This document shows positions 22,164 through 31,960 of a DNA stretch of 64,000 nucleotides, one piece after another. Numbering within the stretch: the stretch's first letter is position 1; the number at the start of each line of letters is the position of its first letter. Below the pieces are notes generated by a model. That model was not told the DNA's origin and did not search any database. It was given only the letters and a program-made list of their open reading frames with translations. Where the stretch lies: the NCBI RefSeq assembly GCF_020667835.1, contig NZ_JAFMPR010000001.1:248001-312000 (forward strand), read 5' to 3'. This DNA comes from Roseibaca sp. Y0-43. Its GTDB lineage: Bacteria > Pseudomonadota > Alphaproteobacteria > Rhodobacterales > Rhodobacteraceae. The translations under genes and the position numbers were made by a program.

Positions 22164-24110
22164 ATGTCACAGACCTATCCGGCATCCGACGATTTCATCG
22201 CCAAGGCGCATGTGAACGCGGCGCAATACGATGAAATGTATGCCGCATCCGTGGCCGACCCCGACGCGTTCTGGGGTGAGCACGGCAAGCGCATCGACTG
22301 GATCAAGCCTTATACCAAGGTGAAGAACACCAGCTTCGAATTCGGCAAGGTCGACATCAAGTGGTTCGAGGACGGCACGCTGAACGTGGCCGCCAATTGC
22401 ATTGACCGCCATGTTGCCACCCGTGGCGACCAGACCGCGATCATCTGGGAACCCGATGACCCCAAGACGCCCGCGAAACATATCACCTATGCGCAATTGA
22501 AAGACGAAGTCAGCCGCATGGCCAATGTGCTGAAGGCACAGGGCATCGGCAAGGGCGACCGGGTCGTGATCTACCTGCCGATGATCCCCGAAGCCGCCTA
22601 TGCCATGCTGGCCTGCGCGCGTATTGGGGCGATTCATTCCATCGTGTTTGCAGGCTTTTCGCCCGACGCGCTGGCCAACCGCATCAACGATTGCGGCGCG
22701 AAGGCCGTTATCACTGCCGACACCGCCCCGCGCGGTGGCCGCCGCACCGCGCTGAAATCGAACACCGACAAGGCGCTGTTCGACTGCTCGGACAAGGTGA
22801 AGTGCTTTGTCGTCAAGCATACCGGCGACCAGACAACATGGGTTGATGGCCGTGATCTGGACCTGAAAGCCATGATGGCCGAGGCCAGCACCGATTGCCC
22901 GCCCGAGGAAATGGGCGCGGAAGACCCGCTGTTCATCCTCTACACCTCTGGCTCGACCGGCCGCCCTAAGGGTGTTGTGCACACCTCTGGCGGCTACCTG
23001 GTCTATGCCGCGATGACGCAGCAGCTGACCTTTGATTACCATGATGGCGACATCTTCTGGTGCACCGCCGATGTGGGTTGGGTCACGGGCCACAGCTACA
23101 TCGTCTATGGCCCGCTGGCCAATGGCGCGACCACGATCATGTTCGAAGGCGTGCCGACCTACCCCGATGCGGGCCGTTTCTGGGAAGTCTGCGCCAAGCA
23201 CAAGGTCAACCAGTTCTACACCGCCCCCACCGCGATCCGCGCGCTGATGGGCCAAGGCACCGAATGGGTCGAAAAGCACGATTTGTCGTCGCTGAAGCTG
23301 CTGGGGTCCGTGGGTGAACCCATCAACCCCGAAGCGTGGAACTGGTATAACACCCATGTCGGCAAGGGCCGTTGCCCCATCGTCGATACATTCTGGCAGA
23401 CAGAAACCGGCGGGCACATGATTACCGCCCTGCCGGGTGCGACCGCCGCCAAGCCCGGCGCCGCAACGAAACCCTTCTTCGGCGTGCAGCCAGAGGTTCT
23501 GGACCCGGCGACCGCCGAAATCCAGACCGAGACCGCTACCGAAGGCGTTCTGTGCATCAAGGATAGCTGGCCGGGTCAGATGCGCACTGTCTGGGGCGAC
23601 CATGAGCGTTTCATGGACACCTATTTCAGCCAGTATAAGGGCTACTATTTCACCGGCGACGGCTGCCGCCGCGATGCTGATGGCGATTACTGGATCACGG
23701 GCCGCGTCGATGACGTGATCAACGTGTCCGGCCACCGCATGGGCACCGCCGAGGTGGAATCCGCCCTTGTCGCGCATGAAACCGTGGCAGAGGCCGCCGT
23801 GGTGGGCTACCCGCATGACATCAAGGGTCAAGGCATCTACGCCTATGTCACCCTGATGAACGGGATCGAGCCCAGCGAAGAGCTGCGCAAGGAACTGGTG
23901 AAATGGGTCCGCACCGAAATCGGCCCGATCGCCAGCCCGGACCTGATCCAATGGGCACCGGGCCTGCCGAAAACCCGCTCTGGCAAGATCATGCGCCGTA
24001 TCCTGCGCAAGATTGCAGAGAATGACTACGGCGCTTTGGGCGACACCTCGACCTTGGCCGACCCGTCGGTGGTCGATGACCTGATCGACAACCGGATGAA
24101 CCGGGGCTGA
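22164..24110 (+). CDS. acs: Acetyl-coenzyme A synthetase (AMP-forming)
   Basis: Activates acetate with ATP and CoA to acetyl-CoA, AMP and pyrophosphate. The 648-residue protein is full length and has the adenylation motifs in order: [22 protein letters not shown] (A3 loop), [10 protein letters not shown], the [12 protein letters not shown] acetate-pocket region, [18 protein letters not shown] and the C-terminal TRSGKIMRR, whose Lys is the catalytic and acetylation-controlled residue in homologues. ATG 22164 has TGGAGGAG seven to eight bases upstream. It leads a long rightward gene block; adk follows after 13 bases, which suits recycling of the AMP product. The AT-rich region upstream probably carries the promoter. 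Confidence 0.97.
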
Positions 24111-24123
24111 GGAGATGGACGCC

Positions 24124-24792
24124 ATGACCAAAACAACCGTTCTGATCCTGCTTGGCCCTCCGGGGGCCGGCAAGGGCACCCAAGCCCGGATGCTGGAGCA
24201 GAAATTCGGGCTGGTGCAATTGTCCACCGGCGATCTGCTGCGCGCGGCTGTGGCTGCGGGCACGGAAGCAGGCTTGCAGGCGAAAGCGGTGATGGAAGCG
24301 GGTGGGCTTGTCAGCGACGAGATCGTGCTGGCCATCCTGCGCGACCGCATGAACGAGCCGGACACCGCCAAGGGCGTCATCCTTGACGGCTTCCCGCGCA
24401 CCGCTGGCCAAGCCGCCGCCCTCGACACCCTGCTGGAGGAGCAGGGCATGTCGCTGGGCGCGGCCATCTCGCTAGAGGTGGACGACGCCGCGATGGTCGA
24501 GCGTGTGTCGGGCCGCTACACCTGCGCCAAATGCGGCGAAGGCTACCATGACAGCTTCAAGACGCCTGCCGTGGCGGGTGTCTGCGATGCTTGCGGCAGC
24601 ACCGAATTCAAGCGCCGTGCCGATGACAATGCCGAAACCGTCGGCGCCCGCCTGAGCGCCTATCACGACCAAACCGCGCCGCTGATTGCCTATTACGACG
24701 GCAAAGGCGCGCTGAAACGCGTGGACGCCATGGGCGAGATCGACCGCATCGCGGCCGATCTGGGCGCGATCGTGACCGAGGTCACGGCCTAA
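24124..24792 (+). CDS. adk: Adenylate kinase, zinc-finger LID type
   Basis: Interconverts AMP + ATP and 2 ADP. The 222-residue protein has the P-loop LGPPGAGKGTQA, the AMP-site STGDLLRA, LDGFPRT and a long LID with two CxxC pairs (CAKCGEGYHD... and ...CDACG) that should bind Zn. I choose ATG 24124 over the in-frame ATG at 24115 because GAGGAG (24109-24114) is nine bases before the former but touches the latter. Adenylate kinase of this order is usually encoded among ribosomal-protein genes, so this copy, 13 bases after acs, may be a second one dedicated to AMP made by acetate activation. That is inferred; the rest of the genome is not visible. Confidence 0.95.
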   Translation: MTKTTVLILLGPPGAGKGTQARMLEQKFGLVQLSTGDLLRAAVAAGTEAGLQAKAVMEAGGLVSDEIVLAILRDRMNEPDTAKGVILDGFPRTAGQAAALDTLLEEQGMSLGAAISLEVDDAAMVERVSGRYTCAKCGEGYHDSFKTPAVAGVCDACGSTEFKRRADDNAETVGARLSAYHDQTAPLIAYYDGKGALKRVDAMGEIDRIAADLGAIVTEVTA

Positions 24793-24956: not shown

Positions 24957-25211
24957 ATGTCAGACAAGTCACGCGGCGCCTATTGGGCCGCCAATATCCG
25001 GATCATTACCATTTCGATGGTGATCTGGGCGTTGGTGTCCTTCGGGTTTGCCATCATTCTACGCCCGCTTCTGTCGGGTATTCCGGTCGGGGGCACCGAT
25101 CTTGGGTTCTGGTTCGCGCAACAAGGCTCGATCCTGACCTTCATCGTGCTCATTTTCTATTACACCTCTTACATGAACAAACTCGACAAAGAGTTTGACG
25201 TGGAAGAATAA
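24957..25211 (+). CDS. DUF4212 small subunit of sodium:solute symporter
   Basis: An 84-residue membrane protein with two hydrophobic helices (about residues 14-38 and 52-70) and an acidic end KLDKEFDVEE. DUF4212 proteins are found directly before VC_2705-type symporters, as YjcH-like DUF485 proteins are before ActP, and probably form a small subunit. It lies 164 bases after adk and 15 bases before the symporter gene. GGGAG precedes the ATG. The 164-base spacer holds a GCCTGCC/GGCAGGC hairpin and no gene. The exact role in transport is not established. Confidence 0.9.
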   Translation: MSDKSRGAYWAANIRIITISMVIWALVSFGFAIILRPLLSGIPVGGTDLGFWFAQQGSILTFIVLIFYYTSYMNKLDKEFDVEE

Positions 25212-25226
25212 GGGATACCCGAGATC

Positions 25227-26993
25227 ATGGATCAGTTTGTAATCAACCTTATCTTCGTGGGGGCGTCCTTCGCGCTCTACGTCGGTATCGCGATCTGGGC
25301 ACGCGCCGGGTCGACCTCTGACTTCTATGCCGCATCGCGCGGCGTGAACCCCATCGTCAACGGTGCTGCCACGGCGGCCGACTGGATGTCTGCGGCATCC
25401 TTCATCTCGATGGCGGGCCTGATCGCCTTCGTGGGCTATGGCAACTCGACCTTCCTGATGGGCTGGACCGGCGGCTACGTGCTTTTGGCAATGCTTCTGG
25501 CACCCTACCTGCGCAAATTCGGCCGTTTCACGGTTCCGGATTTCATCGGCGACCGCTTCTACAGCCAGACCGCGCGCCTTGTGGCCGTTATCTCGCTACT
25601 GGTGATCTCGATCACCTATGTGATCGGGCAGATGACCGGTGCAGGCGTGGCCTTCTCGCGCTTCCTGGAAGTGTCGAACACCACCGGTCTGTTCATCGCA
25701 TCGGCTGTTGTGTTCGTCTACGCCGTTCTGGGCGGGATGAAGGGCATCACCTACACGCAGCTTGCACAATACGTCGTGCTGATTATCGCCTATACCATTC
25801 CGGCGGTCTTCATCTCGCTGCAACTGACCGGCAACCCGCTGCCCCAGCTTGGCCTGTTCAGCACCCATACCGGGTCTGGCCAGCCGCTGCTGACCACCCT
25901 GAACGAAATTCTGGTGGATCTGGGCTTCAACGACTACACCGGCAACCACGGCTCGACCTTCAACATGGTGCTGTTCACCCTGTCGCTGATGGTCGGCACC
26001 GCCGGTCTGCCCCACGTCATCATCCGCTTCTTTACCGTTCCGAAAGTGTCGGATGCGCGTAAATCGGCAGGTTGGGCGCTGGTCTTCATCGCGCTGCTTT
26101 ACACCGTTGCTCCGGCAGTGGGTGCAATGGCACGCCTGAACATCATCACCACCATCTTCCCGAACGGCCTGACCGAAACGCCGCTGGCCTATGCGGACAA
26201 GCCCGACTGGATGCTGAACTGGGAAAACACCGGCCTGCTGGCGTTCGAAGACAAGAACGGCGACGGTTTCATCCAGTACTACAACGACGCAAACCCGCCT
26301 GCGATTGCAGAGGAACTGGGCTGGGCCGGCAACGAAATGGTCACCTTCAACCGTGACATCCTCGTGCTTGCAAACCCGGAAATCGCACAGCTTCCGGGCT
26401 GGGTGATCGGTCTGATCGCGGCTGGTGGTCTGGCAGCGGCATTGTCGACGGCGGCAGGTCTGCTTCTGGCGATCTCGTCGGCAGTTAGCCACGACCTGAT
26501 CAAGTCGATGATCAACCCCAACATCTCGGAAAAGGGCGAGCTGTTGGCCGCGCGTATCTCGATGGGCTTCGCGATTGCCTTGGCAACCTATCTGGGCCTG
26601 AACCCTCCGGGGTTTGCCGCGCAGGTGGTGGCACTGGCCTTCGGTCTGGCCGCAAGCTCGCTGTTCCCGGCGATCATGATGGGCATCTTCTCGAAGAAGA
26701 TGAACTCGGCTGGTGCAATCACCGGTATGATCGTGGGTCTGGGTTCGACCGTGCTCTACATCTTCACCTATCTGGGTTGGTTCTTCATCCCCGGCACCAA
26801 CATGCTGGCAAACACCCCGGATAACTGGATCCTCGGCATCTCGCCGCTGAGCTTCGGCGCAGTGGGTGCGGTTCTGAACTTTGCTGCGGCTTACGTCGTC
26901 TACAAGATGACGGGCGATGCTCCGGCAGAAATCCAGGAACTGGTGGAATCGATCCGCGTGCCGAAAGGCGCTGGCGCGGCTGTCGATCACTGA
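25227..26993 (+). CDS. Sodium:solute symporter, VC_2705 subfamily (probable acetate/short carboxylate uptake)
   Basis: A 588-residue SSS-family transporter with about 13 membrane helices. It starts MDQFVINLIFVGASFALYVG and has the family region GAATAADWMSAASFISMAGLI with its conserved sodium-site helix, GMKGITYTQLAQYVVL, and a C-terminal pair of helices. A long external loop at about residues 325-385 sets the VC_2705 subfamily apart; within it DKNGDGFIQYYN (342-353) looks like an EF-hand-type calcium loop. Neighbours (acs, DUF4212) point to acetate, but no direct evidence of substrate is visible. Codons are less GC-biased here (many GCA, TCG), as in highly expressed genes of this group. A 13-bp hairpin follows. 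Confidence 0.92.
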   Translation: MDQFVINLIFVGASFALYVGIAIWARAGSTSDFYAASRGVNPIVNGAATAADWMSAASFISMAGLIAFVGYGNSTFLMGWTGGYVLLAMLLAPYLRKFGRFTVPDFIGDRFYSQTARLVAVISLLVISITYVIGQMTGAGVAFSRFLEVSNTTGLFIASAVVFVYAVLGGMKGITYTQLAQYVVLIIAYTIPAVFISLQLTGNPLPQLGLFSTHTGSGQPLLTTLNEILVDLGFNDYTGNHGSTFNMVLFTLSLMVGTAGLPHVIIRFFTVPKVSDARKSAGWALVFIALLYTVAPAVGAMARLNIITTIFPNGLTETPLAYADKPDWMLNWENTGLLAFEDKNGDGFIQYYNDANPPAIAEELGWAGNEMVTFNRDILVLANPEIAQLPGWVIGLIAAGGLAAALSTAAGLLLAISSAVSHDLIKSMINPNISEKGELLAARISMGFAIALATYLGLNPPGFAAQVVALAFGLAASSLFPAIMMGIFSKKMNSAGAITGMIVGLGSTVLYIFTYLGWFFIPGTNMLANTPDNWILGISPLSFGAVGAVLNFAAAYVVYKMTGDAPAEIQELVESIRVPKGAGAAVDH

Positions 26994-27082: not shown

Positions 27083-28912
27083 ATGCCCGATGTCAGCCCC
27101 AAGGTTCTGGAATTCCTGCAATCGGTGCACCCGTATGACACGCTGCCGCTTGACGAATTGACGCGCGTCGCCAATTCCTTCTGCCGCAACGAATTTGCCG
27201 CAGGCACCGTAATTTATACCGAAGGCGAGCCTATCGGCGGCGTCTGGCTGGTGAAATCCGGCACGGTCGAGGTGACGGACACCCATGGCGCGCTGGTGTC
27301 CATCCTGAACCCGCGCAACTCTTTCGGCGAGCGTGGGCTGCTGCGCGACGGGCGCGCGGCAACGACCGCGACCACCACATCCGACGCTGTCCTGCTGCAA
27401 TTGCCGGGGGGCGAGTTGCGCCACCTGATCGCCAATTTCCCGGCCTTCGAGCGGTTTTTCAGCCGGGGCCAAGGCCAGAACAAGCTGGGCCGCCAGAATG
27501 ATCTGGCCACGCTGAAAGTGGCCGATCTGATGGTGCGCAATCCGCTCAGCGCGACGCCCAGCACCACCGCACAAGAGGCCGCCCGCACCCTGCGCGAGCA
27601 CCGCATTTCCTGTGTGCCCGTGGTCGAGGGCGAAACGCTGGTCGGCATTGTCACCACGCGCGACCTATCTGGCAAGGTGCTGGCCGAGGGGCGTAGCCCC
27701 GACACGCCGCTGGCAGAGTTTATGACCCGTGATCCGCTGTCGCTGGACCCCAGCGCGCTGGGGTCTGACATTTTGCACATGATGCTGGAACACCGCATCG
27801 GCCACGTGCCCGTCACACGCGGCGGCAAACTGGTCGGCATGATTACACAAACCGACCTGACGCGGTTCCAGGCCATCAGTTCTGCCCAGCTTGTGCGCGA
27901 CGCCGCGAATGCCGCGACCATTGATGAGTTAGCCGAGGTGACAGCCCGCATTCCGCAATTGTTGATGCAGCTTGTCGGCGCGCATAACGCGCATGACGTG
28001 GTCACGCGTCTGATTACCGACATTGCCGACACTGTCACCCGGCGTTTGTTGCGCATGGCAGAGGACGAATTCGGCCCCGCGCCCGTGCCCTATCTGTGGG
28101 CGGCCTGCGGCAGCCAAGGGCGGCAAGAACAAACCGGCGTCAGCGATCAGGACAATTGCCTGATTATCGACGACAGCGCGACGCCCGATGACATGGGCTA
28201 TTTCACCCGGCTGGCCCGTTTCGTCAGCGATGGGCTGGATGCGGCGGGCTATTTCTATTGCCCCGGCGACATGATGGCCACGAACCCGCGCTGGTGTCAG
28301 CCTGTCTCGGTCTGGCGGCGCTATTTCTCCGGCTGGATCAACACCCCTTCGACAGAAGCGCAGATGCTGGCCTCTGTGATGTTCGACCTGCGCCCCATTG
28401 GCGGGCAAGTCAGCCTGTTCCGCGATTTGCAGGCCGAAACGCTTGAAGCGGCCAGCAAGAACTCGATCTTCGTGGCGCATATGGTGTCGAATTCCATCAA
28501 GCACGCGCCGCCCTTGGGGCTGCTGCGCGGCTTTGCCACCATCCGCTCGGGCGAGCACAAGAACCATGTCGACATGAAACATGGCGGCGTGGTGCCGATC
28601 ACCGATCTGGCGCGCGTCTATGCGCTGCGCGGCCGCATTCCGGCGGCCAATACCCGCGCGCGGCTGCTGGCGGCGGAAGAGGCGGGGATCATCTCTGTCT
28701 CGGGCGCGCGCGACCTGATCGAAGCCTATGACCTGATCGCCAACCTGCGGCTGGAAAACCAAGCGACGCTGGTGCGCATGGGCCGCAAACCCGACAATTT
28801 CCTTGCGCCGTCGGACCTGTCCGATTTCGAGCGCAGCCACCTGCGTGACGCCTTCGTCGTCGTGCGCACCATGCAATCCGCCGTGGGGCAGATTGCAGGC
28901 ACCTTGGGCTGA
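27083..28912 (+). CDS. cNMP-binding / CBS pair / DUF294 nucleotidyltransferase protein
   Basis: A 609-residue soluble protein. Domains: cyclic-nucleotide-binding-like fold at about 15-125 (GTVIYTEGEPIGGVWLVKSG, NSFGERGLL), two CBS motifs at about 145-265 (VADLMVRNP, LAEFMTRDP) and a GlnD-like nucleotidyltransferase domain at about 295-430. That last domain has the active-site signature CGSQGRQEQTGVSDQDN (Gly343-Ser344, Asp355, Asp357 as metal ligands), followed by a DUF294 C-terminal region to about 600. The catalytic residues look intact, so it may transfer a nucleotide to an unknown target under control of adenine-nucleotide ligands. It lies between the symporter hairpin and the signalling genes; the next gene begins 13 bases on. 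Function is inferred from domains only. Confidence 0.88.
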   Translation: MPDVSPKVLEFLQSVHPYDTLPLDELTRVANSFCRNEFAAGTVIYTEGEPIGGVWLVKSGTVEVTDTHGALVSILNPRNSFGERGLLRDGRAATTATTTSDAVLLQLPGGELRHLIANFPAFERFFSRGQGQNKLGRQNDLATLKVADLMVRNPLSATPSTTAQEAARTLREHRISCVPVVEGETLVGIVTTRDLSGKVLAEGRSPDTPLAEFMTRDPLSLDPSALGSDILHMMLEHRIGHVPVTRGGKLVGMITQTDLTRFQAISSAQLVRDAANAATIDELAEVTARIPQLLMQLVGAHNAHDVVTRLITDIADTVTRRLLRMAEDEFGPAPVPYLWAACGSQGRQEQTGVSDQDNCLIIDDSATPDDMGYFTRLARFVSDGLDAAGYFYCPGDMMATNPRWCQPVSVWRRYFSGWINTPSTEAQMLASVMFDLRPIGGQVSLFRDLQAETLEAASKNSIFVAHMVSNSIKHAPPLGLLRGFATIRSGEHKNHVDMKHGGVVPITDLARVYALRGRIPAANTRARLLAAEEAGIISVSGARDLIEAYDLIANLRLENQATLVRMGRKPDNFLAPSDLSDFERSHLRDAFVVVRTMQSAVGQIAGTLG

Positions 28913-28925
28913 AAGGGCGCAAATC

Positions 28926-29477
28926 ATGCTGATCGAATTTATCGCAGTTGTCGTTGCCGGTGTGACAGGCTTCGGCCTTGCGCTGATCGCGCATCGCCTG
29001 ACCCTGCGCCGCCTGCCCGACTGGACCGCCCCCTTTGGCGCGGCCTTGGGCATGGTGTTGATGGTCATCTACCTGGAATACAGTTGGGCCGGCCGCTTCG
29101 AGGCGGGCCTTCCAGAAGATGTGACCGTCGTCAGTCGCAACGAGCACCGCGTCTGGTATCGGCCATGGACCTATGTGGTGCCGCTGACAACACGCATCAT
29201 CGCCGTCGATAACCGTATTCGCCAAACCAACGAAAACAATCCCGATCTGGTTTTGACCGGGGTGATCCTGAAAGAAAGATGGGCGCTGACCTTCGGGTTC
29301 AAATCCATCTTCGATTGTGCGGCAGGGCGCCGCGCGGACCTGTCCGAAGGCACGACGCTGGATGAAGAGGGCATCTTGCAGAATGTGGACTGGTTCCAGC
29401 TTGCGCCCGATGACCCGTTCCTGACGACCGCTTGTGGAGGAGGAGAGGACAATGGAGGACCAAGCGCGCAAGGCTGA
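28926..29477 (+). CDS. Conserved membrane-anchored protein of unknown function
   Basis: A 183-residue protein I do not recognise. Two membrane helices (about residues 3-23 and 36-53) are followed by a soluble domain of about 130 residues with RVWYRPWTYVVPLTTRI, VLTGVILKERW and FDCAAGRRADL; the end is Gly-rich. The ATG has AAAGGG nine bases upstream and the gene lies 13 bases after the nucleotidyltransferase gene. Its 3' end overlaps the response-regulator start by 26 bases in another frame, so it belongs to the same transcript. The second helix plus a conserved extracytoplasmic or cytoplasmic domain suggests a transporter-associated or sensor accessory role, not proven. Confidence 0.78.
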   Translation: MLIEFIAVVVAGVTGFGLALIAHRLTLRRLPDWTAPFGAALGMVLMVIYLEYSWAGRFEAGLPEDVTVVSRNEHRVWYRPWTYVVPLTTRIIAVDNRIRQTNENNPDLVLTGVILKERWALTFGFKSIFDCAAGRRADLSEGTTLDEEGILQNVDWFQLAPDDPFLTTACGGGEDNGGPSAQG

Positions 29478-29871
29478 GATTCTGGTCATCGAGGACGAGG
29501 ACAATATCGCCATTGCCCTTGACTACCTGCTGACCCGCGAGGGCTATGCCCAAACCCGCCTTGCCACCGGCGCGGGCGCGGTCGACATGATCTGCACGCG
29601 CAAGCCGGATCTGGTGCTGCTGGATGTCATGCTGCCCGAAGTGTCGGGCTACGAGATTTGCCAAAGCGTGCGCGCGAACCACGATTGCGACAGCGTGCGC
29701 ATCCTGATGATGACCGCGCGCGGCTCTGCGATGGAGCGGCGCAAGGGGCTGGCCATGGGCGCGGATGGCTTCATCTCGAAACCGTTCGAGCTGAAAGAGC
29801 TGCGCACGGAAGTGCGCCGGATGCTCGCGGCAGAGCGCAACCCCGCGCCCGAGGGCGCGCGCAATGCTTGA
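29452..29871 (+). CDS. Single-domain response regulator (CheY-like)
   Basis: A 139-residue receiver domain with no output domain. The phosphorylation set is complete: Asp15/Glu16 in ILVIEDEDN, phosphoacceptor Asp58 in LVLLDVMLPEVSGYE, Thr88 in ILMMTARGS and Lys110 in FISKPFE. The ATG at 29452 follows GGAGGAGAGG; an in-frame GTG 18 bases upstream is less well placed. It overlaps the previous gene by 26 bases and the next by 8, so it is co-translated with the sensor-exonuclease fusion. Because that partner has lost the usual kinase residues, the phosphate donor is unknown. Confidence 0.93.
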   Translation: MEDQARKAEILVIEDEDNIAIALDYLLTREGYAQTRLATGAGAVDMICTRKPDLVLLDVMLPEVSGYEICQSVRANHDCDSVRILMMTARGSAMERRKGLAMGADGFISKPFELKELRTEVRRMLAAERNPAPEGARNA

Positions 29872-31960
29872 CCGTCTGTCGCTACGCCTGCGTGTCCTTC
29901 TGTTTTTTGCGCTGATCGCGGTGGGCGCGGGTTTGGCGATCGCCGCCGGGGTCTGGCTGACCCTGTCGCGCAGTCCGCAGCCGGGGCTGGAAGCGCCCAT
30001 GCTGCAAGCGGGCCTGATCGCGGGCTTCCTGATCCTGTTTCTGGTCACGGGCATCTGGTACCTGTTTGACGCGAATGTCGCCCGCGCCATTGACGGGCTG
30101 TCGAACGCCATCCGCAGCCGCGCCCATGCCGATGTGGGCGGCTCGCTTTCGCGAGAAGCGGAACAGGCCCGCTACCTTGGCGATCTGGCCCCAGCCGCGC
30201 AGGCGATCACGGCGTCGCTGGAACAGACCCGTTCGGCGCTGGCGGAATCGGTCGCGCGCGAAACCGCGCGCCTCTCGGCTGAAAAATCGCGGCTGGAAAA
30301 GCTGCTCGCGGATGTGCCCGTCGCGGTTCTGCTGTGCAACGCCGATTTCCAGCTGGCGTTTTACAACGGGCAGGCCGTGACCATTCTGGAAGCGGGCAAT
30401 GCGCCGGGCCTCGACCGCAACTTGCTGGATTACCTGCGCGAAGGGCCGGTGCGCCACGCTTATGACCGTCTGCACCAGTTGGGCGACCCAGATGCCGTGT
30501 CGGACCTGATGTGCGCGACCACCGCGAGCGGGCGGCTATTGTCGGGCCGAATGCGCGTGTTGCGCCGCACCGACAATACCCGCCGCCCCGGTTTCGTGCT
30601 GACCCTGCGCGACGTGACCGCCGATCTGGCCGCCCATGCCGCGCGCGAATCGTTGCTGCAAGAAGTGTTCGACCGCGTCCGTCGCCCTGCCGCGAACCTG
30701 CAAACGGTCATCGGCGTGCTGGCCGAAAGCCCCGATATGGCACGCGAAACCGACCTGACGCAGGCCATGCAGGCCGAGGTACACGCGCTGGCAAGTGCGA
30801 TCACCGAACTGGGCGCGCGCCATGACGCCACGCGCGGCGAATGGCTGCCGCAGACCCGCACCCGCTCGCGCGATCTGCTGGACGGGATAGAGGCACAGTT
30901 CACCGCCGACGGGCTGTTTCTGGAAACCGAAGGCCCGGAACTGGTGCTCACCTGCGACGGGTTCGAACTGGCCATGTTCTTCCGCTGGCTGGGCGGCAAG
31001 CTGGCGGAAACCAAGCGCGCCAAGACCTTCCGCCTTGTGCTGAGCGAAGAGGACGGCCCCGGCGCGATCCTTGACCTTATCTGGCAAGGCCCGCCCCTGC
31101 CCGTGGGCGAATTCGACGGCTGGCTGACCGACAGCATCGACCCCGACCTGCCCGATGTGACCGCGCGCTCTGTCCTGTCGGCGCACATGACCGAAGCCTG
31201 GACAGAAACGCGCCGTAACGGCCATGCCTGCGTGCGCCTGCCCATCCCGCAAGCGCGCCGCGCCACCCGGCGCCCCGCGCCCATAGAGCGGGACGTGGTC
31301 TATGATTTCGACCTGCTTTCGAAAGAGCGCAACGCGGGTGTGCTGGAAAGCCGGCTGGAAGACCTGACCTATGTGGTTTTTGACACGGAAACCACGGGGC
31401 TGACGCCCTCGGTCGACGAGATCGTGCAGATCGCCGCCGTGCGCGTGGTCAATGGCCGCCGCGTGCGGCGCGAGGTGTTCGACACGCTGGTCGACCCGAA
31501 ACGGCCCATCCCGCAAAGCTCGACCGATGTGCATGGCATTACCGATGAAATGGTCATCGGTGCCCCAACGATTGCAGAGGCAGGCAAACGCTTCCACGAT
31601 TTCGCGCGCGGGGCGGTGCTGATCGCGCATAACGCGCCTTTCGACATGGAATTCCTGCGCCGGCACGAGGCAGAGATCGGCGTGCAATTCGACCACCCGG
31701 TTCTGGATACAGTGCTTCTGTCGGCGGTTGTCTATGGCCAGTTGGACCAGCACTCGCTGGATGCGCTGACCGCGCGTCTGGGCATCACGATCCCTGAAGA
31801 GGCGCGCCATACCGCCATTGGCGACACGGTGGCGACGGCGGATGCGTTCCTGAAACTACTGCCCATGTTGCAGGCCAAGGGATTGAACACCTTCGGCGAT
31901 GTGCTGGCAGAGGTGCGCCAGCATGGGCGGTTGCTGAAGGATCTGAACACGCGGATGTAG
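29864..31960 (+). CDS. Degenerate sensor-kinase body fused to DnaQ-like 3'-5' exonuclease
   Basis: A 698-residue fusion. Two membrane helices (about 10-34 and 46-68) flank a short periplasmic loop. Then come a HAMP-like linker and coiled coil (about 68-148), a PAS domain (about 148-252) and a helical pair that resembles the dimerisation domain. Here the usual H-E-L-R-T-P box reads DRVRRP, with Asp270 where the phosphoacceptor His should be. The following ATPase-like region (330-465) lacks recognisable N and G boxes. From about 500 to 695 lies a DEDDh exonuclease with all motifs: VFDTETTG (Asp507, Glu509), AHNAPFD (Asp594) and HTAIGD (His649, Asp654). It overlaps the response-regulator gene by 8 bases. 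The substrate could be DNA, RNA or a small nucleotide signal. Confidence 0.9.
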   Translation: MLDRLSLRLRVLLFFALIAVGAGLAIAAGVWLTLSRSPQPGLEAPMLQAGLIAGFLILFLVTGIWYLFDANVARAIDGLSNAIRSRAHADVGGSLSREAEQARYLGDLAPAAQAITASLEQTRSALAESVARETARLSAEKSRLEKLLADVPVAVLLCNADFQLAFYNGQAVTILEAGNAPGLDRNLLDYLREGPVRHAYDRLHQLGDPDAVSDLMCATTASGRLLSGRMRVLRRTDNTRRPGFVLTLRDVTADLAAHAARESLLQEVFDRVRRPAANLQTVIGVLAESPDMARETDLTQAMQAEVHALASAITELGARHDATRGEWLPQTRTRSRDLLDGIEAQFTADGLFLETEGPELVLTCDGFELAMFFRWLGGKLAETKRAKTFRLVLSEEDGPGAILDLIWQGPPLPVGEFDGWLTDSIDPDLPDVTARSVLSAHMTEAWTETRRNGHACVRLPIPQARRATRRPAPIERDVVYDFDLLSKERNAGVLESRLEDLTYVVFDTETTGLTPSVDEIVQIAAVRVVNGRRVRREVFDTLVDPKRPIPQSSTDVHGITDEMVIGAPTIAEAGKRFHDFARGAVLIAHNAPFDMEFLRRHEAEIGVQFDHPVLDTVLLSAVVYGQLDQHSLDALTARLGITIPEEARHTAIGDTVATADAFLKLLPMLQAKGLNTFGDVLAEVRQHGRLLKDLNTRM

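Follow-up and report, generated by a model that had tools for sequence, protein, structure and literature searches.

Histidine kinases that have been repurposed as readers of response regulator (RR) phosphorylation are, to our knowledge, limited to a few cases, and a two-component pathway with a nuclease as its last step is not known to us. In one of the closest known systems, that of Caulobacter, DivK is a receiver-only RR and the pseudokinase DivL signals to another kinase. The sensor kinases of the SLC5/STAC type, such as CrbS, CbrA, and RpuS, work together with RRs that bind DNA. DnaQ/PolC-type exonuclease domains, RNase T, and ExoX serve as proofreaders or as trimmers of RNA or DNA, and are not known to be anchored behind a sensor.

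DivL has been described as possessing neither kinase nor phosphatase activity and as binding DivK~P via the canonical RR dock, a case in which the kinase-like protein receives information from its RR (PMC4211667). CrbS, CbrA, and RpuS have been tied to the use of acetate or pyruvate (PMC9100948). In P. putida, the RNase_T gene pp_0353 shares an operon with the CBS-domain gene pp_0354, and homologues in P. aeruginosa PAO1 adjoin actP (PMC9927547); exonuclease genes beside acetate-permease genes, to which the preliminary description of the locus studied here had pointed, are therefore on record in print. Deletion of pp_0353 is reported to slow growth on pyruvate, but not on acetate or succinate, and a pp_0354 deletion to leave growth on pyruvate without a defect; the authors speculate on mRNA degradation by pp_0353, a gene tied, with its CBS-domain partner, to acetate transporter genes and MxtR/ErdR, and call the role of exonuclease genes beside acetate-transporter genes unclear (PMC9927547). 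By our own reading pp_0354 contains DUF294, where the source speaks of a CBS domain.

The locus considered here lies in a window of 64,000 nt from Roseibaca sp. Y0-43 (NZ_JAFMPR010000001.1, positions 248,001-312,000, forward strand). An ORF at window positions 29864-31960 (+) encodes a protein of 698 aa, coordinates and length being those given in the preliminary description, and the combined evidence from Pfam, AlphaFold2, Foldseek, and residue conservation identifies it as a fusion of a pseudo-histidine-kinase with a DEDDh exonuclease. Two membrane helices and a HAMP-like/coiled-coil linker (residues 1-144; 29864-30295, +; recognized from the model and family-profile matches) are followed by a PAS domain (residues 145-253; 30296-30622, +; weak PAS_4 match, relatives, and model), by a pseudo-DHp two-helix segment that we propose as an RR dock (residues 254-327; 30623-30844, +; profile, model, conservation, and co-occurrence), and by a pseudo-ATPase (CA) domain (residues 330-466; 30851-31261, +; profile, model, and conservation). 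The C-terminal part is formed by a DEDDh (DnaQ-like) exonuclease domain (residues 502-671; 31367-31876, +; Pfam, family library, Foldseek, and conservation).

In the AlphaFold2 model (mean pLDDT 81.5; pTM 0.52, which makes the placement of the domains unsure), long N-terminal helices at residues 7-36 and 43-88 lead into the PAS-like region, after which come the DHp helices (251-288 and 296-327), an alpha/beta domain (332-466), and the exonuclease (502-671). As read from the model and the sequence, merely 6-10 residues or so separate the two N-terminal helices, and a periplasmic sensor domain is therefore presumably absent. Foldseek aligns the N-terminal part with good E-values to sensor kinases (the WalK model 9a5d, 4i5s, and ThkA 3a0r); since the rmsd of these long alignments amounts to 14-23 Å, they back the content and order of the domains rather than one rigid fold. 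Pfam detects in this single sequence a PAS_4 domain below the cut-off (residues 150-253, E 0.02) and neither HisKA nor HATPase_c; among 27 relatives searched singly, it finds PAS_4 in 20, HisKA in four, HATPase_c in one (E up to 0.1), and HAMP in one. A profile of residues 1-500 built from the 27 relatives matches the VicK-like 4i5s across PAS, DHp, and ATPase (E 1.2e-16), DivL 4q20 (E 2.6e-8), and chemoreceptor and HAMP chains. The membrane helices, HAMP-like linker, PAS domain, and DHp-like helix pair that had been read from the sequence are thus borne out, and both DHp and ATPase domains of a histidine-kinase fold are present, stripped of the kinase residues.

These domains have been kept although the kinase boxes are gone. 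Asp270 occupies the position of the phosphoacceptor His, as had been recognized at the outset, and a His is found there in none of 110 aligned long forms of the protein; the column holds Asp in 90, Glu in 15, Ala in three, Ser in one, and Thr in one. The loss of the N and G boxes was likewise seen correctly: in the profile alignment to 4i5s, the N-box Asn pair faces a Glu and a gap, and a Trp (Trp407) stands in place of the G1-box Asp in 109 of the 110 long forms. With the His, the N-box Asn, and the G1 Asp all missing from its sequence, the fusion almost certainly cannot autophosphorylate. The frequency of an acidic residue, Asp or Glu, in place of the His (105/110) could be taken as a sign of a true kinase that uses this or another residue together with a divergent ATP site, a reading that we consider extremely improbable in the face of the N-box and G1 substitutions and the missing HisKA and HATPase_c matches in this protein. 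Judged by its sequence, the protein holds an inactive kinase core with a retained DHp, as in the DivL-type pseudokinase, with which it shares a kinase fold devoid of kinase activity and a PAS domain upstream of it; unlike DivL, it ends in a nuclease and is encoded in an acetate operon. A pseudogene or decaying gene was ruled out, as non-kinase and exonuclease residues are conserved across families; the long forms keep Arg273 (109/110), Gly409 (110/110), His441 (109/110), and Trp446 (109/110).

The exonuclease domain is recognized by Pfam as RNase_T (residues 504-662, E 6e-37). The catalytic set Asp507, Glu509, Asp594, His649, and Asp654, listed in the preliminary description exactly as we find it, is present in 156-157 of the 157 rows, with a gap in the remainder. 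With a TMt of up to 0.86, Foldseek matches the domain to the exonuclease domains of Pol III epsilon and PolC, that of T. maritima PolC being 37% identical, and its score for TIGR00573, the epsilon subunit family at the domain level, is 113.7 bits against a cut-off of 71.5, while the full-length cut-offs for the PolC-type (153.8 vs. 873 bits) and dnaQ_proteo families (103 vs. 222.7 bits) are missed. The D-E-D-H-D set and the DEDDh fold, which it shares with DnaQ/PolC-type domains, RNase T, and ExoX, hence appear to be intact, and the domain is a predicted exonuclease. As the enzyme is membrane-bound, a short RNA or a nucleotide adduct would be a likelier substrate than chromosomal DNA. Like pp_0353, it has a CBS-domain partner gene and is tied to acetate transporter genes; it is set apart by its membrane, PAS, and kinase parts, which the partial account of pp_0353 on which we draw leaves unmentioned (PMC9927547).

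The pseudokinase-exonuclease fusion is a conserved family and not a one-off, as a survey of this architecture with 110 aligned long forms reveals. In a sample of 149 genomes from the bacterial family of the source organism, each representing another genus, 73 match residues 1-479 of the fusion (E 1e-5). Leaving out G144 and G067, these comprise 28 full long forms (including G022, where the protein is split over two frames), the divergent long form of G130, four proteins in which the DHp is shortened and the pseudo-ATPase retained, and 38 short forms in which TM-HAMP-PAS is kept and the PAS domain runs straight into the linker and the exonuclease. Seven further families of the class contain long forms as well. 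A further 21 exonuclease loci (L041-L061) were collected, with wider flanks for four of them; in two proteins from other families (L043, 324 aa; L044, 310 aa), what appears to be a membrane N-terminal segment is joined almost directly to the exonuclease. Two relatives, with 54% (L116) and 70% identity (L073), come from records named Alkalisalibacterium limincola and Caenispirillum salinarum, which we take to lie outside the Rhodobacteraceae, and may be the result of horizontal transfer.

Immediately upstream of the fusion gene, and overlapping its start by 8 bases, is a gene for a receiver-only RR (29452-29871, +). It had been overlooked in the preliminary description and is key to the interpretation of the locus. 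The residues for phosphorylation are preserved in this RR group (Asp in 110/110 readable rows, Lys in 111/111, and Thr in 108/111), and the distance from domain start to stop is 110-149 aa in 109 of 111 proteins, the other two being shorter. Devoid of an output domain, and in this respect unlike the DNA-binding RRs of CrbS, CbrA, and RpuS, the RR must act by binding.

The presence of this RR follows that of the pseudo-DHp. Within the family sample, a phosphorylatable receiver is encoded no more than 22 bases upstream in 28/28 genomes with a full pseudo-DHp and in 0/42 others, that is, in 0/4 with a shortened DHp and 0/38 with a short form (for L180, 479 bases upstream were available). A search of whole genomes for the RR yielded scores of at least 127 bits in 28 genomes and of at most 104 bits in all others; the upper group contains 26 full long-form genomes (26/28) and none of the 42 genomes in which the DHp is missing or shortened. 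In G125 and G117, the adjacent RR is divergent (profile scores of 130 and 124 bits), and G131 and G111 possess a close RR orthologue without the fusion, which in G131 directly follows acs and an adenylate kinase-like gene (L255; G111 is L256).

When all collected proteins are considered and a nearby RR is defined as one on the same strand at -200 to 1500 bases, 107 proteins have such a neighbor, and their DHp always measures 64-74 aa. A nearby RR is missing for 50 proteins, among them 43 without a kinase core, four in which a pseudo-ATPase of 113-148 aa is kept with a DHp of just 23-45 aa (L028, L029, L173, and L177), and three with a full DHp (L034, L116, and L121). Of these three, L121 starts at a contig end, and in the wider stretch around L034 (G227; L244) an RR that matches the same profile with 163 bits is found on the other strand beside DUF294 and a candidate kinase; L116, from the Alkalisalibacterium record, has no RR within 10 kb upstream and over that distance counts as a genuine exception. 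A possible further exception outside the 107/50 count is L259 (G130), where a full-length degenerate DHp occurs and an RR is absent in 14 kb. This count leaves out L192 (no N-terminal match), 14 duplicates, and L021, L078, L106, and L123, whose reading frame does not continue into an exonuclease; L257 and L259 were obtained after it had been made. The named loci, the best 80 of 490, account for a large share of the 107 proteins, and 78 of them have the RR (L116 lacks it and L121 lies at a contig end); having been picked for their similarity to long forms, these are biased with respect to RR presence, and the family sample is unbiased.

A single deletion that removed the RR gene and the DHp together was ruled out, as TM-HAMP-PAS sits between them and is kept in the short forms. 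Their joint loss therefore needs two events, which are most simply explained by selection for a function that both serve. In the best tree of 85 rows, a quick one (37 with DHp and RR, 46 with neither, two with the DHp only, and none with the RR only), at least six DHp changes and at least eight RR changes are required; only two independent pairs fall on starred branches, and the sign test is therefore without power (p 0.5). It should be noted that the DHp was scored in this tree by a PAS-exonuclease gap of at least 225 aa, except for L177, set negative by eye (segment measured at 42 aa), and that L021 and L180 were left out and six hand-picked named loci included. Coevolution was dropped as support for an RR-DHp interface: mutual information with APC between RR and fusion (107 pairs, Neff 53) gives scattered top pairs, none of the top 100 joining the DHp with receiver alpha1 or beta5-alpha5 (about two expected from a background of 1330/57526). 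The whole DHp takes part in 18 of these 100 pairs (1.5x), and PAS (1.7x) and linker (2.5x) are enriched as much or more.

The RR-DHp co-occurrence suggests a signaling pathway that steers a nuclease, and since the RR tracks the full pseudo-DHp, phospho-signaling most likely reaches the nuclease via the RR. The notion of the preliminary description that the membrane signal acts on the nuclease instead of phosphorylation is not supported by this pattern. We assign a probability of roughly 0.64 to a two-component pathway with nuclease output, in which a kinase would phosphorylate the RR, and RR~P would act through the pseudo-DHp on the membrane-tethered exonuclease. Alternatively, membrane helices and PAS domain could control the exonuclease directly, in which case the kinase core would serve, without activity of its own, as a spacer or as a scaffold for dimerisation and the RR would be an operon bystander, an arrangement suggested by the 38 short relatives, compared with 28 full long forms in the family sample, in which TM-HAMP-PAS is kept, and by the RR genes without a fusion in G131 and G111. 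We consider it unlikely, as no dependence on DHp length would be expected of a bystander RR, yet the RR is absent in the four shortened-DHp rows that retain the pseudo-ATPase, and as the conservation of Trp407, Gly409, His441, and Trp446 in 109-110 of 110 long forms is unlike that of an inert spacer. The earlier proposal of control from membrane and PAS domain to nuclease survives in part: the 38 short forms look built for it, whereas the long forms most likely add the RR input. With short relatives of the TM-HAMP-PAS-exonuclease type at hand, both inputs may exist.

The two RR orthologues without a fusion also indicate that the RR may have other partners, and would fit a pseudo-kinase that acts on the RR as a phosphate sink, as a phosphatase, or by localising it, with a separate constitutive nuclease that happens to share the polypeptide. 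Such an independence of the two halves is quite improbable given that the exonuclease residues are kept throughout and that, among the best candidates considered per genome (at most seven), all 12 matches of at least 95 bits in a pseudo-kinase profile search carry the exonuclease.

In the two-component pathway that we favor, and for which we infer RR docking, gating, phosphodonor, and substrate, the RR with its retained phosphorylation residues would be phosphorylated by a separate sensor kinase or by acetyl phosphate. The pseudo-DHp would be the docking platform for the upstream-encoded RR, as their co-occurrence implies, and RR docking, together with the state of PAS and HAMP, would switch the C-terminal exonuclease. 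The direction of information flow from RR to kinase-like protein would be that of DivL (PMC4211667). PAS and HAMP would provide a second input, on which the short forms would have to rely alone. Acetyl phosphate is a possible phosphodonor, and the source genome contains an acetate kinase gene.

The sensor kinase may, with less assurance, be a protein with a symporter-like N-terminus that neighbors RR and fusion in other bacteria. This candidate, a protein of some 900-940 aa in which both HisKA and HATPase_c are intact, is encoded directly downstream of the fusion in seven of 11 distant long-form loci for which wider stretches were taken (L235-L239, L241, and L245), five of them chosen for a second kinase match near the fusion. 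It is convergent in L244, where an RR stands beside it, and was not seen in the wider stretches of L240 and L242, that of L185 being too short to tell. Pfam reports SSF for its N-terminus in one of four proteins and below the cut-off, so that the label symporter-like stems partly from recall; CrbS, CbrA, and RpuS are possible relatives. In the source genome, the candidate is unlinked to the fusion (G000:C11:154484-157150) and adjoins a second receiver-only RR of the same profile that is about 40% identical to that of the window. This pair occupies positions 4485-7798 of L254 (G000:C11:150000-163000), and similar pairs occur in L247-L253 and L258; in L246 and L257, the RR beside the candidate kinase is that of the fusion, and L257 (G023) unites acs, symporter, DUF294, candidate kinase, RR, and fusion in one row. 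A tracking of the pseudo-DHp by the candidate kinase within the family was ruled out, as it occurs in 134 of the 149 genomes irrespective of form, with or without the RR.

The genes upstream of RR and fusion relate the locus to acetate. Acetyl-CoA synthetase (acs; 22164-24110, +; library match, start codon chosen by hand) is followed by a small membrane protein of 84 aa, presumably DUF4212 (24957-25211, +; a syntenic reading frame), a VC_2705-family sodium/solute symporter (25227-26993, +; TIGR03648, 816.8 bits), a cNMP-CBS-DUF294 putative nucleotidyltransferase (27083-28912, +; library match, syntenic in the family), and a conserved, by eye probably membrane-bound hypothetical protein without a match in Pfam or NCBIfam (28926-29477, +; syntenic), which is kept between DUF294 and RR or exonuclease in long and short forms alike. 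An adenylate kinase-like gene, seen by eye at 24115-24792 between acs and the transporter, could serve to recycle AMP from acetyl-CoA synthetase. As far as the contigs extend, the order acs, small membrane protein, symporter, DUF294, hypothetical protein, RR, and fusion recurs in nearly all named loci (the best 80 of 490); acs is absent within 8.9 kb in L073 and on the other strand in L116. Short forms have the same neighbors minus the RR, as far as the stretches reach.

The DUF294 gene lies near the exonuclease in 4/4 short distant loci fetched (L190-L193) and is strong in only 5/11 distant long-form loci (L240-L242, L244, and L245), a linkage that makes a writer/eraser pair conceivable. DUF294_C has been grouped with the C-terminal domains of the GlnD/GlnE type (PMC3710099). 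The linked, GlnD-like DUF294 protein might add nucleotides to a protein or RNA target in acetate metabolism, which the phosphorelay-gated exonuclease would then remove; this is a tentative idea that is more probably wrong than right. If true, it would give two-component systems an output class of a new kind, a phosphorelay-controlled nucleotide eraser.

A literature search whose reach excluded most subscription papers found no description of a pseudokinase-exonuclease fusion. That a pseudokinase reads an RR is already known; what would be new here is a nuclease as the output, together with this genetic co-occurrence. That RR and DHp are gained and lost together serves as a genetic experiment performed by nature, and singles out a specific interface that can be mutated. 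By analogy with P. putida pp_0353, the proposed pathway probably tunes the use of acetate or pyruvate, and the finding offers a handle on why exonuclease genes adjoin acetate-transporter genes in distant proteobacteria.
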